Part shown: one piece after another, positions 38,503 through 44,010 of the stretch
How positions within the stretch are numbered: position 1 is the stretch's first letter
Layout of the letters: the number at the start of each line of letters is the position of its first letter
NCBI RefSeq assembly: GCF_016863115.1
Contig: NZ_BOOG01000016.1
Span: 62,001-126,000 of the forward strand
Direction: 5' to 3'
From: Sphaerimonospora thailandensis
GTDB taxonomy: Bacteria; Actinomycetota; Actinomycetes; Streptosporangiales; Streptosporangiaceae
Length of the DNA: 64,000 nucleotides
Program-made: the position numbers and the translations under genes
The notes under the pieces: model-generated
What the model was told of the DNA's origin: nothing
The model's database searches: none
What the model saw: the letters and a program-made list of their open reading frames with translations, nothing else

Positions 38503-39405
38503 GTGGATCGAGACGTACGGCTGAGGCTGGACCTGGGCTATGACGGCACCGAGTTCTCCGGATGGGCCAAGCAACCCGGACGGCGCACCGTCCAGGGCGA
38601 GTTGGAGGACGCCTTCGGCCGGATCCTGCGACTGGAGGTCCCGCCCGCGCTGACCGTCGCCGGCCGCACCGACGCGGGAGTCCACGCCCGTGGCCAGGTC
38701 GCGCACGTGGACGTCCCCATGTCCGCGTTGGCCGCGGTCGGCATGCGCCAGTCGGCAGCTCCCCACGGCATGGCCCAGGGAGGGAGCGAGGCGTCCACCG
38801 GTTCGGCCGCGGGGGCGGCCGCCGGCTTGATCAGGAGGCTGGCCGGTGTGTTACCGCCAGATGTCCGGGTTCATGCCGTCTCCGTCGCTCCTGAGGGCTT
38901 CGACGCCCGGTTCTCCGCGCTTTCCCGCCGGTACGGCTACCGCGTGTGCGACGCGCCCGGGGGCGTCGATCCCCTGCGCCGCCGCGAGGTGCTCTGGCAC
39001 AGCCGTCCGCTGGACGTCGAACTCATGAACGCGGCGGCCGTCCGGTTGCTGGGGGAGCACGACTTCGCCGCCTTCTGCAAGCGCCGTGAGGGCGCCACCA
39101 CGATCCGTGAGCTGCGGCGGCTCGACCTGGACCGGGGAGCCGACGGGATCATCCTCGCGACCGTGGCGGCCGACGCGTTCTGCCACTCGATGGTCAGGGC
39201 TCTGGTGGGCTCCCTGCTGGTGGTCGGAGAGGGCAGGCGGCCGGTCGGGTGGCCGGGGGAGGTGCTGGGCAGAGCCGTACGCGACTCGGGCGTGCATGTC
39301 GCGCCCGCGCACGGCCTGACGCTGGAGGAGGTGCGCTATCCGGCCGAGGCCGAGTTGGCCCGGCGCGCCCTGCAGACGCGCCGGGTCCGCACGCTCAGCC
39401 GGTGA
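38503..39405 (+). CDS. truA: tRNA pseudouridine synthase A
   Basis: TruA makes pseudouridine at tRNA positions 38-40. The 300-residue protein has the catalytic-Asp motif [17 protein letters not shown] and [10 protein letters not shown], plus [19 protein letters not shown] in the C-terminal part. Between about residues 77 and 113 it has an Ala/Gly/Ser-rich insertion not seen in E. coli TruA. The GTG start follows GGAGG. The next gene, on the opposite strand, overlaps its end by 11 bases. Confidence 0.93.
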
Positions 39406-41245
39406 CGCGCTTTTCGATCACCTTGGCGGTGTGATCGCGGAAGGCTCCGCTGATCGGCCCCAGGGTCTTGTCCTTGTCATCAGGGGTGTGACCGTCGGCG
39501 TAGGTGGCGTAGCTGAAGACGACGTAGCGCCCCCACACCATGCCGGCCGCGTAGCCGCCGGAGATCGAGACCCGGTCGGCGCGGCTGGCCCGGCTGCCGT
39601 CGAGACCGCGGAACCACACGTTGCCGCCGAGGTCCTTGGCCTGGTCGACGGCGAGCGCGGCCTCCTTGGAGGGGAGCACGGCGATGCCCGTCGTGACGGC
39701 GTACTCCCGCTTGCCGTCCACATAGGTGGCGCGAACCACGCGCCGGCACTGGTGCTGCTCGAGGGCCCTGGCGAAGGCACCGGCGGCTGCGCGCTCGCAC
39801 TTCTCGGTGATGCCGACCTTCACTCGCCGGTATGTGCGCCCGGCGAGGGTGATCTTCTGCTCGGGGAACGTTTCGGAGACGGTCAGCGTCCGCGGGTCGG
39901 TCGTCTCGGAGTCCAGGATCGCGGAGGCGGCGCCGGTCTGCTGGGGGAAGGCGGTCGCGTCGGGATCCGGGGCGGAGGCGTCCGTGGTGGGAGCGACGGT
40001 GGCTCCCGCCGTCCCGCCGTTCGCGGAGCCGCCCGGCTGGTCGGCGTAGGCGAAGTAGGCCGCCGTGCCGATCGCGCCGATCACGACCACGGAGCAGGCG
40101 GTGAGCAGCACCTTCCGCAGGCCGCCGCCCCCGCCGTCGGTCGTGGCGGCCCCCGGGGATCCGTTGCCCGGCCCGCCCGGCACGCCCCGTGTGGCCTCCG
40201 ACGGCGGCACGGCCGGTCCGAACCCCGGTGGCGGGGACGGCTTGCCGGCCCGGGCCGGCGTCACCGGGGTAAAGGCGAACGGCGTCGAGTCGGGTGCCGG
40301 GGAGCCGGACGGGAGCCCCTGCTGGGACACCGCTGGAGGCGGCATGGGCCCAGCGGGGGGTGCTGCGGCGGGAATCGGTCCTGGGGGCGTCTGGAGGGAT
40401 GTCTGGGGCCGCACCTCTCGCGGGGCATCGGACGGCGCTCCTCCCCCCGCAGGGAGCGCCCGCGTCTCCGGCGTCTCCCGCGGCGCGGGGACGCCGATCG
40501 GCATGCCGTCCGTGCTGTGTGCGGGCTCATGCGCGGATCCGGTGCCGGCAGCGTCGGCGGCGATCTGCGAGGGGGCCATGTCGGTCGGCTGGCGGGCCGG
40601 GGCCCCGTCCGGTGGCGGGACCTGCGCCTGTGGCGGCCCGGCCGATGTCGCCTCGGCCCCGCGCTGCGGGTGCCTCTGGTCGTCCCCGTGCGAAGTGGGT
40701 GGCGGCGAAGTGGGCGGCGGGGAAGGGGGCGGCGGCCATGGGGCGCCGAACGGACGGGTGACGGCGGCGGTGGGCGCGCCGGGCCAGGCGGCGGGCGACG
40801 GATGGTCGGGCTCACCCGGCAGCCGGGGCGGCCACGCGGGAAACTCGGGGGGACCCGGCATACGGAAGCGCGCGGTGTCGTCGGGTTGCGGGGTTTCGGG
40901 GGGCTGTGGGGTTTCGGGCGGCTGAGGAGACTGCCCGTACGGTCGTTGGTCCCCCTGCGTCGGGGCACCTCCGTAGATCGGCTGATATCCCTGTGCTTCC
41001 TGACGCCAGTACGCCTGATGATGCCCCGGGGCCTGGGCCTGGACATGGCCGTAGGTCCAAGTGGTATCGACAGTGCCGTGCTCATTTGGGCTGCCCGCAA
41101 TGCCGGGGGCTCCCGGAGCGTCTGCCGGCGCCTGGCCGAAGCTCGGCGGTGGCATGGGCGGCGCCGCCGAGCCCTCGGCGTCGGACTCGCGGCGAGTCCA
41201 CGCCGGGTCGTTTTCGTGCTCGGAACCGGAATCCTGGCCACGCAT
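39395..41245 (-). CDS. Proline-rich membrane protein with exported C-terminal domain (paralogue A)
   Basis: A 616-residue protein of unknown function. Residues 1-375 are cytosolic, low-complexity and very rich in Pro, Gly, Ala and Gln. One transmembrane helix (about 376-400) follows, then an exported domain of about 215 residues. That domain has two close cysteines (EKCERAAAG and EQHQCRRVV), likely a disulphide, and ends near [19 protein letters not shown]. The same exported domain occurs in the next gene. The product could sense or bind something at the surface; no catalytic motif is recognisable. The ATG has no ribosome-binding site, but a -10-like box lies 10 bases upstream. Confidence 0.78.
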
Positions 41246-41254
41246 ACGCGGAAG

Positions 41255-41260
41255 CGTATA
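41255..41260 (-). promoter_or_regulatory. -10-like box implying a near-leaderless transcript (paralogue A)
   Basis: On the minus strand TATACG ends 9 bases before the ATG at 41245, so transcription would begin within a few bases of the start codon. It is part of an ATACGC/GCGTAT inverted repeat (41244-41259). No clear -35 was found. Confidence 0.35.
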
Positions 41261-41365
41261 GGCGCACGCGAGATCGACGTGCCGCTATGGGCGTTTCCGT
41301 ATCTGCCCCGGCGGCGGCCCGCCCCCCGCTTCCATCGCCCAGAACGACGCGTCGACCGGCCGGTT

Positions 41366-42439
41366 TCAGGTGCGGCGACCCGTCAGCGAGCGGTGCTCCA
41401 GGGCCGGGAAGACGGTTTTGTCAGCGATGTCCGCGGCGGCTTGATACAGCAGCTTCTGCTCGGCCTTGGTGGGCTTGTGGCCATCCTTGAACTGGAACCA
41501 CAGCAGAACCGCGTAGTGGCCGTACGCCCAGCCGCCGGCGTACGCATCCCCGGCGCCGCCCAGGTGCTTGGTGGCGTCGTCCTTGCCGGGCAGGGGCTTG
41601 AGGTAGTCAGTGCGCTGGGCGCCCCCGCCCGCCGAGGTGACCTTCTTGGCGTGGGCCGAGGTCGTGAGGTTGGCCACGCCCACCGTGCCGATGATCGTGC
41701 CCTTCGCGTCGGCGAAGCTCGCCCGGATGAGCTGGGTGCACCTGCCCGCCTTGAGCGCTTTCTGGATCTTCGCGCCGGAGACCCCGTCGGTGCAGGTCTT
41801 CTCCTTGCGGCGCACGGTCATGACATACGCCCGTCCGCTCCTGCCGAACTTCTTGTCGCCGAAGACCTCCCCGAGGGTCAGGGGCATCTTGTCGGTGGCC
41901 CGCGAGCCGGCGAAGCCGTACTTGCCCTTGGGCGCCTCCGGCACCTGGAGCGTCGGCGTGGGCAGGGCGCGCGGCGCCGGCGGCTTCTCGCTGCGCGCCG
42001 CGACCCACAGCCCGAGGAAGAGCGCCCCGATCAGGGCCAGCAGGGCGCAGCCGAGCACGACTGGGCGACGCCACAGGGGAGCCGGAGCGTACGGATCCCA
42101 TTCCGGCCCCCCGTACTGGGGTGAGGACGTGCGTTCCGGCAGCGGTCGGTCGGCGGCCGCCGCCTGGTCCGGCTGTTCTCGGCGCCGGCCGGCGTACGGC
42201 GAGCTCTCGCCGGGTTCCTCCTGCCCGGCTTCCGGCGGTCCGCCGTCCCGGCTCTGCCACGGCGTCTCGTAGGGATTGCCATAGGGGTTCTCCCGAGACG
42301 CGCCGTACGGGGAGGCGTTGCCGTACGGGGAGGTGCCCTGTGGACTCGGCGGAGGCGGTGACGATGGTGCAGGCGGTGACGATGGCGCAGGCGGTGCAGG
42401 CGGCTGGCGGGGTGTTAGCGGATCGCCGGGGTAACCCAT
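41366..42439 (-). CDS. Proline-rich membrane protein with exported C-terminal domain (paralogue B)
   Basis: A 357-residue protein built like its downstream neighbour: a Pro/Ser/Tyr-rich cytosolic part (1-120, with repeats such as PYGNASPYG), one transmembrane helix (about 122-147) and an exported domain. Shared features are the cysteine pair (EKTCTDG and AGRCTQLIRASFAD), a GVANLTTSAHAKK strand and WAYGHYAVLLWFQFKDGHKPT, which matches [19 protein letters not shown] in paralogue A. Sequence divergence is high, so the duplication is old or fast evolving. Function unknown. The start ATG overlaps the predicted transcription start. Confidence 0.78.
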   Translation of the reverse strand: MGYPGDPLTPRQPPAPPAPSSPPAPSSPPPPSPQGTSPYGNASPYGASRENPYGNPYETPWQSRDGGPPEAGQEEPGESSPYAGRRREQPDQAAAADRPLPERTSSPQYGGPEWDPYAPAPLWRRPVVLGCALLALIGALFLGLWVAARSEKPPAPRALPTPTLQVPEAPKGKYGFAGSRATDKMPLTLGEVFGDKKFGRSGRAYVMTVRRKEKTCTDGVSGAKIQKALKAGRCTQLIRASFADAKGTIIGTVGVANLTTSAHAKKVTSAGGGAQRTDYLKPLPGKDDATKHLGGAGDAYAGGWAYGHYAVLLWFQFKDGHKPTKAEQKLLYQAAADIADKTVFPALEHRSLTGRRT

Positions 42440-42445
42440 GCCCCG

Positions 42446-42451
42446 AGATTA
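42446..42451 (-). promoter_or_regulatory. -10 box placing the transcript start at the ATG (paralogue B)
   Basis: TAATCT on the minus strand, a perfect TAnnnT, ends 6 bases before the ATG at 42439. The expected start base coincides with the A of ATG: a leaderless mRNA. No -35 match is evident. Confidence 0.45.
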
Positions 42452-42479
42452 GTCGGCTGGCCGGACACGGGAGGAACGG

Positions 42480-43271
42480 TCAGGAATAACCGAAGTCCTC
42501 GGTCCACCAGGGGCCGCCCGGCCCCATGTTCACCCCGACGCCGGTCGCGACCAGGCGGCAGTTGAGGATGGTCGTCCGGTCCTGGCGGTCGGCCATCCAG
42601 CCTCGTACGACTTCCTGGGCGGTCTGGTAGCCACGGGCGATGATCTCCGCGCCGCTGTTGGTGTATCCGGCCGCGGCCATGCGGTCCCAGGGCGTGGCGC
42701 CGTTCGGGGAAGAATGATCGAAATGGTTGGCGGCCGCCATCTCGGCCGAGTGGGCGCGGGCGGACCTGACCAGACGGCGGTCCATCCGCAACGGCGCGCA
42801 GCCGCGCCTGGCACGCTCGGCATTGACCAGTCGTACGACCTGCCGCTCCAGCGAGGGGAAGACGTCCGAGCCGACGCCGCCGTCGGCCGTCCCACCGGTG
42901 TTCTCCCGGCCGAGCGTGCTCCACAGCGGACTCCCGCCATCCGAGCCGTCGATCATGTTGGAGGGGCGGCGCGGTCGCGAGCGGGGAGTCGGAGAGGCCT
43001 TGGCCGCCTGCCCTGTCCTGGGCGTGTCGGTGCGCATCACGTGGTCGAGCGGCGGGCGGTCCTTTGAGGGAGCGGGCGGGGCGCTCTCCACCGGGGTGGG
43101 GGAGGGAGCCTGGTTGCGCAGATAGACGTCGTCCATGTCCTCTCTGGGCGAGGTCACCCGGCCGATGACTACGCCGATCAGCAGGATCGCCGTTGAGCAC
43201 GCGAGCAGACCCAAAAGAGTCCCGCGCCGGGGCGTCCGTTGGGTATGCCGGTTGTGAGGGGGCTGCCACAT
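42480..43271 (-). CDS. Membrane-anchored CAP-domain (SCP-like) protein
   Basis: A 263-residue protein with a basic start, one transmembrane helix (about 20-38) and a Pro/Ser/Arg-rich linker, then a C-terminal CAP domain (about 135-263). Motifs are RLVNAERARRGCAPLRMD, ARAHSAEMAAANHFDHSSP and GVNMGPGGPWWTEDFG. The His/Glu pair (AHSAEMA; HFDHSS) of bacterial CAP proteins is present. Two cysteines (GCAPL; NCRLVA) may pair. Such proteins are secreted or surface proteins of mostly unknown role. It lies upstream of the two proline-rich genes on the same strand, but each has its own start signal. Confidence 0.85.
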   Translation of the reverse strand: MWQPPHNRHTQRTPRRGTLLGLLACSTAILLIGVVIGRVTSPREDMDDVYLRNQAPSPTPVESAPPAPSKDRPPLDHVMRTDTPRTGQAAKASPTPRSRPRRPSNMIDGSDGGSPLWSTLGRENTGGTADGGVGSDVFPSLERQVVRLVNAERARRGCAPLRMDRRLVRSARAHSAEMAAANHFDHSSPNGATPWDRMAAAGYTNSGAEIIARGYQTAQEVVRGWMADRQDRTTILNCRLVATGVGVNMGPGGPWWTEDFGYS

Positions 43272-43281
43272 ACCGCAGTCA

Positions 43282-43287
43282 AATATA
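43282..43287 (-). promoter_or_regulatory. -10 box close to the CAP gene start
   Basis: TATATT on the minus strand ends 10 bases before the ATG at 43271; TTACCT 18 bases further upstream (43306-43311) is a fair -35. The leader would be only about 4 bases, so the mRNA is nearly leaderless. Confidence 0.45.
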
Positions 43288-43388
43288 GGGATGTCGGGGA
43301 GAGGGAGGTAAGTGTCGGCAGATATGGATTTGATGAACGTTCAAAAGCCGTCCTGCCGACGGCTGAGCCCGGTGCCCGGGCTGCTGTT

Positions 43389-43417
43389 TTGACCGGGGGT
43401 CGGGAGGCCGGTAGTCT
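43389..43417 (+). promoter_or_regulatory. rplM-rpsI(-glmM) promoter
   Basis: TTGACC (43389-43394), 17 bp, TAGTCT (43412-43417): near consensus. The predicted start is near 43424, about 143 bases before rplM. Confidence 0.75.
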
Positions 43418-43566
43418 GCTAGTTCGTTGTGTGTGGATCGGTCTGCTCGATCGCGGACCGGTGCACGGCGCGTCCGGCGTCTTCTCCCGTACATGTGGAG
43501 ACGGAGGTTGTGTCGTGCCTGCGCAACCTACCGAGTGTTCACATCCCGACAGAAGGCAGCACTGCC

Positions 43567-44010
43567 GTGCGCACGTTCTCACCGAAGCCCAACGACGTCG
43601 AGCGTCAGTGGTACGTCATCGACGCCACCGACGTCGTGCTCGGCCGGCTGGCCAGTCAGGTAGCGACCCTGCTCCGTGGCAAGCACAAGCCGATCTTCGC
43701 TCCGCATGTCGACACCGGTGACTTCGTCGTCGTCGTCAACGCCGACAAGGTCGCACTGTCCGGCAACAAGCTTCAGCAGAAGAAGGCCTACCGCCACTCG
43801 GGCTACCCCGGCGGTCTCCGTGCCGTCACCTACGGCGAGCTCATGGAGAAGCGTCCCGACCGGGCCGTGGAGAAGGCGGTCCGCGGCATGCTGCCCAAGA
43901 ACTCGCTCGGCCGGAAGATGGCGAAGAAGCTCAAGGTCTACGCCGGCCCCGAGCACCCGCACCAGGCCCAGCAGCCGGTGCCGTACCAGATCACCCAGAT
44001 CGCCCAGTAA
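43567..44010 (+). CDS. rplM: 50S ribosomal protein L13
   Basis: L13 is an early 50S assembly protein. The 147-residue protein starts [19 protein letters not shown], has [18 protein letters not shown] and [23 protein letters not shown] 43567 follows AAGG; the upstream frame extension lies in the leader after the promoter. Confidence 0.96.

Follow-up and report, generated by a model that had tools for sequence, protein, structure and literature searches.

Predicted single-pass envelope proteins with a PknH-sensor-like fold lie, with a CAP-domain protein, between truA and rplM in Sphaerimonospora thailandensis

Introduction

The question raised by this locus is what the genes that separate truA from rplM encode, and what their products may do at the cell envelope. 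In a 64,000-nucleotide stretch of Sphaerimonospora thailandensis DNA (NCBI RefSeq assembly GCF_016863115.1, contig NZ_BOOG01000016.1, positions 62,001 to 126,000 of the forward strand; hereafter the window), the gap between the plus-strand genes truA (ending at 39405) and rplM is filled by three minus-strand genes, termed here CAP, B and A. An earlier note, made from the letters alone, had placed the three genes correctly and framed them as an island of fast-evolving exported proteins that interrupts a conserved ribosomal neighbourhood. The present analysis established the anatomy of the genes, the conservation of a shared exported domain, its predicted fold, a conserved tip on the cytosolic tail of A, and neighbourhoods of the domain that recur. 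On these grounds A and B are tentatively read, at a confidence somewhat short of probable, as kinase-less receptors or adaptors of the envelope with the fold of the PknH sensor, linked to the handling of exported proteins. The tail-tip motif of A, the element upstream of A, the presence of the domain near truA or rplM in other actinobacterial families and two further genomic homes of the domain are new here. The features of the cluster are as follows.

39395..41245, minus strand: gene A, 616 residues, with proline-rich tail, one helix and exported PknH-sensor-like domain (hidden Markov model (HMM), structural model, structure comparison)
41096..41245, minus strand: N-terminal tip of A, residues 1-50 (MR[GA][QK]... 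then PPPSFG), conserved (orthologue counts, identity in seven genomes)
40127..41095, minus strand: variable tail of A, residues 51-373, rich in Pro, Ala and Gly (70 orthologues)
40055..40126, minus strand: transmembrane helix of A, about residues 374-397 (hydropathy)
39398..39925, minus strand: exported domain of A, residues 441-616, two cysteines (HMM, model, PknH comparison)
41366..42439, minus strand: gene B, 357 residues, with proline-rich tail, one helix and exported domain (HMM, model, structure comparison)
42002..42076, minus strand: transmembrane helix of B, about residues 122-146 (hydropathy)
41369..41929, minus strand: exported domain of B, residues 171-357, two cysteines (HMM, model, PknH comparison)
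42480..43271, minus strand: CAP-domain protein, 263 residues, with N-terminal helix at about residues 16-38, linker and CAP domain at 146-257 (Pfam CAP, hydropathy)

Results

A and B share an exported domain outside the named families

The proline-rich tail, single helix and exported domain previously described for A and B were each found, and exactly two cysteines follow the helix in either protein (residues 483 and 500 in A, 216 and 234 in B). As basic residues precede the single helix in A, B and CAP (hydropathy and sequence), A and B would fit an N-inside topology with the domain outside. The assignment of the third gene also stood, its product being a clear Pfam member of the YkwD-type CAP superfamily (PF00188; 73.4 bits against a gathering cut-off of 21.1, E 3.5e-20), which lay below the model's own cut-off for TIGR02909 (E 5.5e-25) and below that for DalA. 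At its 3′ end, A overlaps the convergent truA by 11 bases.

The likeness of A and B, which the earlier note had rightly seen, was confined to the exported domain in BLASTP (E 2e-6, 23% identity), and a single HMM scored both at about 1e-55, both having been in its training set. Iterated HMM searches of 40 fetched regions and the window yielded 69 frames with the domain, and in a 50-member domain alignment the second cysteine never varied and the first showed a conservation of at least 90%. Of 100 genomes in a set of relatives, 64 matched the B domain at 1e-3, and of 394 genomes drawn from the class, 117 matched the family profile at 1e-4, the genome under study being included in both counts. 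A domain this widespread is no peculiarity of one island, and as far as A and B show it is without a Pfam or NCBIfam name: neither collection held a family at threshold for either protein, in agreement with the previous claim that the domain lies outside known families. Sequence searches of the PDB found no solved protein matched by A, B or the domain, and at E up to 0.01 A, B and CAP matched no family of PADLOC (anti-phage defence).

Identity to the window among seven named genomes was 61-90% for the A domain, 59-85% for the B domain, 54-93% for the CAP domain and 69-84% for TruA. For the tails it was 31-52% (A) and 5-50% (B, where 5% denotes a missing tail), identity in such low-complexity tails partly reflecting composition. 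Tails and linkers evolve fast and the domains do not, and the description of the proteins as fast-evolving was therefore upheld for the former and failed for the latter.

The modelled domain resembles the sensor of PknH

AlphaFold2 models, built solely from the window sequences and those of loci from a genome scan seeded with A, reached a predicted local distance difference test (pLDDT) of 89.7 for the A domain and 91.3 for the B domain. Structure comparison was by VIA-align, a re-scoring of Foldseek's own candidates in which the best Z of unrelated folds is usually 7 to 8. The A model matched the PknH sensor (PDB 4esq) with a Z of 11.1 and a root-mean-square deviation (rmsd) of 3.4 over 135 aligned residues, followed by TiME (Z 9.2) and then, as the next other protein, by a match at 6.1. 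The B model matched 4esq with a Z of 8.8 (rmsd 4.0, 136 residues aligned), followed by TiME (7.8) and an Rv0999 orthologue (6.5). The second-best structural match of both is thus the soluble domain of the mycobacterial TiME (PDB 7cu8, 7cu9), at 8-10% identity, and both TiME and PknH appear in the Foldseek lists of A and of B. The predicted model of A would accordingly share the PknH sensor fold over 135 residues at a score above the background, and that of B at a score near the background and just slightly above it.

In PknH, a proline-rich stretch precedes the helix, as it does in A and B. Like the PknH sensor (PF14032), the domains of A and B are exported after one helix and share its predicted fold; the proteins differ from PknH in having no kinase (at E up to 1, neither protein matched a Pfam kinase), no Pfam match, two exported cysteines rather than two disulphides, and unproven kinship. 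PknH_C itself was matched by neither A nor B at E up to 1, nor by any protein of the own genome at 1e-5. For the PknH sensor, two disulphides are described together with a large cleft that is proposed to accommodate a small ligand, and PknH-like domains are described also in M. tuberculosis lipoproteins and Rv3705c (PMC3601408, PMC4118811). An exported PknH-like domain is likewise found in the kinase-less mycobacterial proteins LpqQ, LprH, LppH, LpqA and Rv3705c; unlike A and B, Rv3705c carries a predicted signal peptide, and in the part of the source consulted the remaining four go by the name of lipoproteins and a long cytosolic tail is mentioned for none of the five; they are set beside A and B by description (PMC4118811).

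Several results weigh against reading A and B as PknH-type receptors. The Z of 8.8 for B barely exceeds the usual best score of unrelated folds, and Foldseek itself returned nothing significant against the PDB (best E 0.17 and 0.29). Comparison with PknH_C by hhalign was weak (E 0.004 and 8.4% probability with a wide alignment, E 0.22 and probability 0.3 with a closer one), and PknH_C was touched weakly by just five of the 50 domain members (best E 0.0037). Other models did as well or better, DUF7373 being matched by three members (best E 5e-4) and DUF7059 by one (9e-4), and the Rv1815 serine proteinase model was matched by two (best E 1.4e-5), the B domain itself reaching 17.2 bits there against a cut-off of 175. 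The two exported cysteines of A and of B allow at most one disulphide, as against two in the PknH sensor, and the conserved tip of the A tail, described below, could serve localisation or stability rather than signalling. As support for kinship from sequence is weak, the label PknH-sensor-like fold is used for the modelled domains, and A and B are not filed under PknH_C.

A conserved tip ends the tail of A

Of the A proteins from 80 loci and the window, 81 in all, those that start at a contig end were left out; they number 11, ten of which begin at bases 1-3 and one (L130) at base 10 after adapter-like sequence. All 70 remaining orthologues, with whole 5′ ends, have both MR[GA], located in the frame's first 60 residues, and the longer start motif, and 69 of the 70 carry PPPSFG within the first 110. 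Over seven genomes, the first 50 residues of A showed 44-88% identity, as against the 31-52% of the tail. Behind the tip, the tail ranges from about 328 to 1815 residues over the 70 orthologues, a more than fivefold variation, and is 22% proline. No named locus has a longer A frame than that of Nonomuraea pusilla (L137:4283-10522), which spans 2080 residues from one stop codon to the next.

In B, no comparable tip was found in the 18 of 70 proteins examined, and two of these 18 (L094 and L102) start almost at the helix and have no tail; judged by these two, the tail of B is dispensable. A tip held constant on a tail of free length is to be expected of a docking peptide. The proposal that the tails are interaction platforms thus gained in one respect for A, where the tip is constant and the length free.

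The cluster is part of a conserved neighbourhood

Of 178 stretches confirmed in the genome scan seeded with A, the best 80 were kept as named loci; A is present in these by construction, B and CAP are not. By their titles they come from Microbispora, Nonomuraea, Streptosporangium, Herbidospora and related genera, presumably all Streptosporangiaceae, and from one metagenome-assembled genome titled Actinobacteria (L121). Both rplM and truA were present in 67 of the 80, and CAP, B and A lay between them, in this order and on the opposite strand, in 67 of 67. Twelve of the other 13 loci are cut by contig ends and one is a true exception, L146:1-6524 of Nonomuraea corallina, in which B and A adjoin truA and neither CAP nor rplM lies within 5.2 kb. 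As the arrangement was thus kept in 67 of the 68 named loci uncut by contig ends, the cluster belongs to the conserved neighbourhood that it had been thought to interrupt, and an insertion or mobile island was rejected. In L146, the sole rearranged locus among the 68, the place of CAP and rplM upstream of B is taken by other genes, one of them enolase-like (by eye).

A second set comprised 20 regions selected for carrying B; a CAP match was found in 16 (not in L050, L051, L052 and L054) and two domain copies in 19 (not in L054). The domain was also observed beside truA or rplM in other actinobacterial families, in regions that were picked by domain match and show location, not frequency. Single copies adjoin truA and/or rplM in f1 (L063, L065, L067, L074, L198, L200, L204), and the domain does so too in f3 (L072) and f19 (L192-L194 and L197; in L071 it lies beside rplM at a contig end). 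In f20 (L186-L191) it is near truA/rplM, truA being several kilobases away in L188, L189 and L191, and in f39 (L195, L196) it is beside truA, with rplM outside the region. Searches of the open-access literature found one paper, on another subject, for SCO4731-4733, which we take to be the counterpart neighbourhood of Streptomyces coelicolor, no paper joining three of ESX-4, truA, rplM and Actinobacteria, and nothing on the subject among the matches listed for PknH-like sensors in these genera.

The domain has two further genomic homes

The second home is made up of the 14 fetched regions in which the domain lies outside the truA-rplM gap and has no mycosin next to it. Genes for MauE, a DsbA-like protein and Lgt adjoin one or two domain copies in all 14, and GltB lies on the opposite side in 13 (not in L075, a short stretch), these neighbours having been checked against Pfam in L056, plus one in L062. 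In four of the 14 (L056, L059, L061, L070), a VIT1-family gene separates Lgt from the domain gene.

The third home is defined by its neighbour, a mycosin-like S8 protease open reading frame (ORF) that stands beside all 10 domain copies in seven loci. In L058, L202 and L203 one mycosin has the Asp-His-Ser triad and the other does not, and the single mycosin of L057 is also without it. Mycosin is reported to be able to act in type VII secretion without protease activity (PMC5082899). Proteases and domain copies were seen to alternate in L058:7290-10981, L202:5767-9944, L203:5220-9058 and L057:6537-8156.

In a tree of 115 domains, two changes explain the three homes: the DsbA/Lgt home forms one clade (support 100/99, 25 rows) and the mycosin home another (91/85, eight rows), in a tree that is rooted at its midpoint and has many close relatives, several long rows and weakly supported deep branches. 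L224 and L227 fell under its entry threshold.

Type VII secretion genes occupy the same gap elsewhere

We take the truA-rplM gap to be the ESX-4 site of M. tuberculosis. In L274:2-19900 the gap holds genes for a TIGR03931 protein, EccC, EccD, a mycosin and EccB, with two short WXG100-like frames (by eye), and in L269:3-19760 it holds EccC, TIGR03931 and a mycosin-like ORF. L270, L271 and L272 stop short of rplM, and in each of them truA and a mycosin-like ORF are about 12 to 15 kb apart; L273 showed no such ORF. None of the six regions L269-L274 contained a domain copy at E up to 1.

TIGR03931 (type VII secretion-associated, Rv3446c family) resembles A and B in its place in this gap (L269, L274) and, in L274, in the order of its parts, which are a cytosolic part, a proline-rich stretch, a helix and an exported domain. 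It differs in that its exported domain is without detectable kinship to that of A and B and its cysteines lie at the C-terminal end. A type VII identity of the A/B domain was tried and rejected (hhalign against the TIGR03931 alignment, E 0.12, probability 0.5), and at E up to 1 none of the NCBIfam type VII secretion system families was matched by A, B or CAP. A search of the own genome gave no EccB, its control being silent in all 14 genomes, and the EccC and mycosin matches there lay below cut-offs. Position in the gap is what the domain cluster and the type VII genes have in common; common descent is not claimed. The TIGR03931 protein of L274 also has a DnaK/HscA-like N-terminus.

Proposed role and rival explanations

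In the mechanism that we propose, A and B belong to one family of single-pass envelope proteins with a modelled PknH-sensor fold and without a kinase. The most likely task of the exported domain would be to bind, in the cell wall zone and alongside the neighbouring CAP protein, either a ligand or a client that is itself exported, and the conserved tip of the long, disordered cytosolic tail of A would most likely dock one cytosolic partner. A may in this way report or tether across the membrane, with B as its probable partner on the outside and B and CAP as exported companions. Across the homes, the CAP, mycosin-like and DsbA/Lgt neighbours suggest a role in exported-protein handling, which the wider family might monitor or assist. 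If A and B are indeed kinase-less relatives of the PknH sensor, they would illustrate how sensors of this type function when no kinase is attached, with the conserved tip of A as a direct bait for the cytosolic partner. One domain would then also link three separate loci for exported-protein handling, and it would be clear what occupies the site where other actinobacteria keep type VII secretion genes.

The same neighbours of all three homes that feed the receptor or adaptor reading also feed a rival in which A and B are maturation cofactors without signalling, the domain assisting exported proteins in folding, processing or assembly and the tails just setting reach or localisation. Each home adjoins genes for exported-protein handling (CAP in 67 of 68 loci, MauE-DsbA-Lgt in 14 of 14 regions, mycosin-like proteases at 10 of 10 copies), and the tree sorts the domain copies by home. 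Cofactors of this kind, however, would explain neither why the tip of a cytosolic tail that can reach about 1815 residues is conserved nor why the domain resembles a receptor sensor; a CAP match was missing from four of the 20 related regions, and neighbourhood is not physical association. We regard such cofactors as possible, while leaning against them. A role that is structural alone, as a tether or in surface display with a spacer-like tail fixing the envelope to a cytosolic scaffold, would suit a tip that stays constant while tail length varies; a spacer, however, needs no conserved sensor-type fold, and B can be without a tail. We consider such a role improbable.

It is quite improbable that A and B are an ESX-4-type remnant or replacement, having descended from, or taken over from, secretion-associated proteins of the gap. 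Type VII genes do fill the same gap in L274 and L269, from which the domain is absent, and the L274 TIGR03931 protein has the plan of A and B, yet no kinship to TIGR03931 was detected, and the EccB, EccC and mycosin results of the own genome, given above with their limits, also count against it. The framing as a fast-evolving, strain-specific island, to which the drift of tails and linkers lends a little colour, is scarcely credible, being contradicted by the presence of the cluster in 67 of 68 uncut loci and by domain identities of 59-90%. Extending the receptor reading to the whole family is a bolder step, and unlikely to hold in full: the copies would form a family of actinobacterial receptors that has so far gone unrecognised and is coupled to the handling of exported proteins (by CAP at the ESX-4 site, by DsbA/Lgt, and by mycosin or pseudo-mycosin), with A signalling or tethering through the conserved peptide that ends its disordered and nearly unconstrained tail. 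The truA-rplM gap would then represent an ancestral locus of the envelope, occupied by either ESX-4 or the receptor.

DNA upstream of A and B

Two features were found ahead of A.

41271..41297, minus strand: conserved element upstream of A, GRAACGCCCATA..G.CA...CGATCT, kept in 69 distinct upstream sequences
41253..41258, minus strand: TACGCT (TAnnnT), conserved, seven bases ahead of the A start codon; possible -10 box

In those 69 upstream sequences the block GGrAACgCCCATA is followed by CGATCT and, near the A start, by TAnGCT, and bases farther out are not kept. With up to three mismatches allowed, the own genome contained one exact copy of the pattern and one further site that deviates at two positions; for the reversed pattern, used as control, it contained no site. 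This conserved and nearly unique block suggests that A has a promoter of its own. The element has the look of GGAAC-N16-CGAT, a pattern typical of promoters of extracytoplasmic function (ECF) sigma factors. A scan of 39200-43700 for sigma-70 promoters found none. Upstream of B, an ungapped comparison of 57 of 70 B genes, with the start set by pattern, showed no comparable long block; an A at -11 was kept in 93%.

Further observations

Swapped effector modules were sought in five distant domain proteins (L220, L222, L225, L226, L228) with nothing gained, none matching a Pfam family at E up to 0.01. In L220:1405-3024, a helix and an N-terminal module, the latter about 330 residues long, precede the distant copy. 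On the plus strand of the window, an 897-codon open frame (39431-42124) runs antisense to A and B and is most likely an artefact of high GC content. The TruA of the window (38503-39405) shows, by eye, an insertion rich in Ala, Gly and Ser at about residues 80-105, and one TruA model matches the protein in two stretches.

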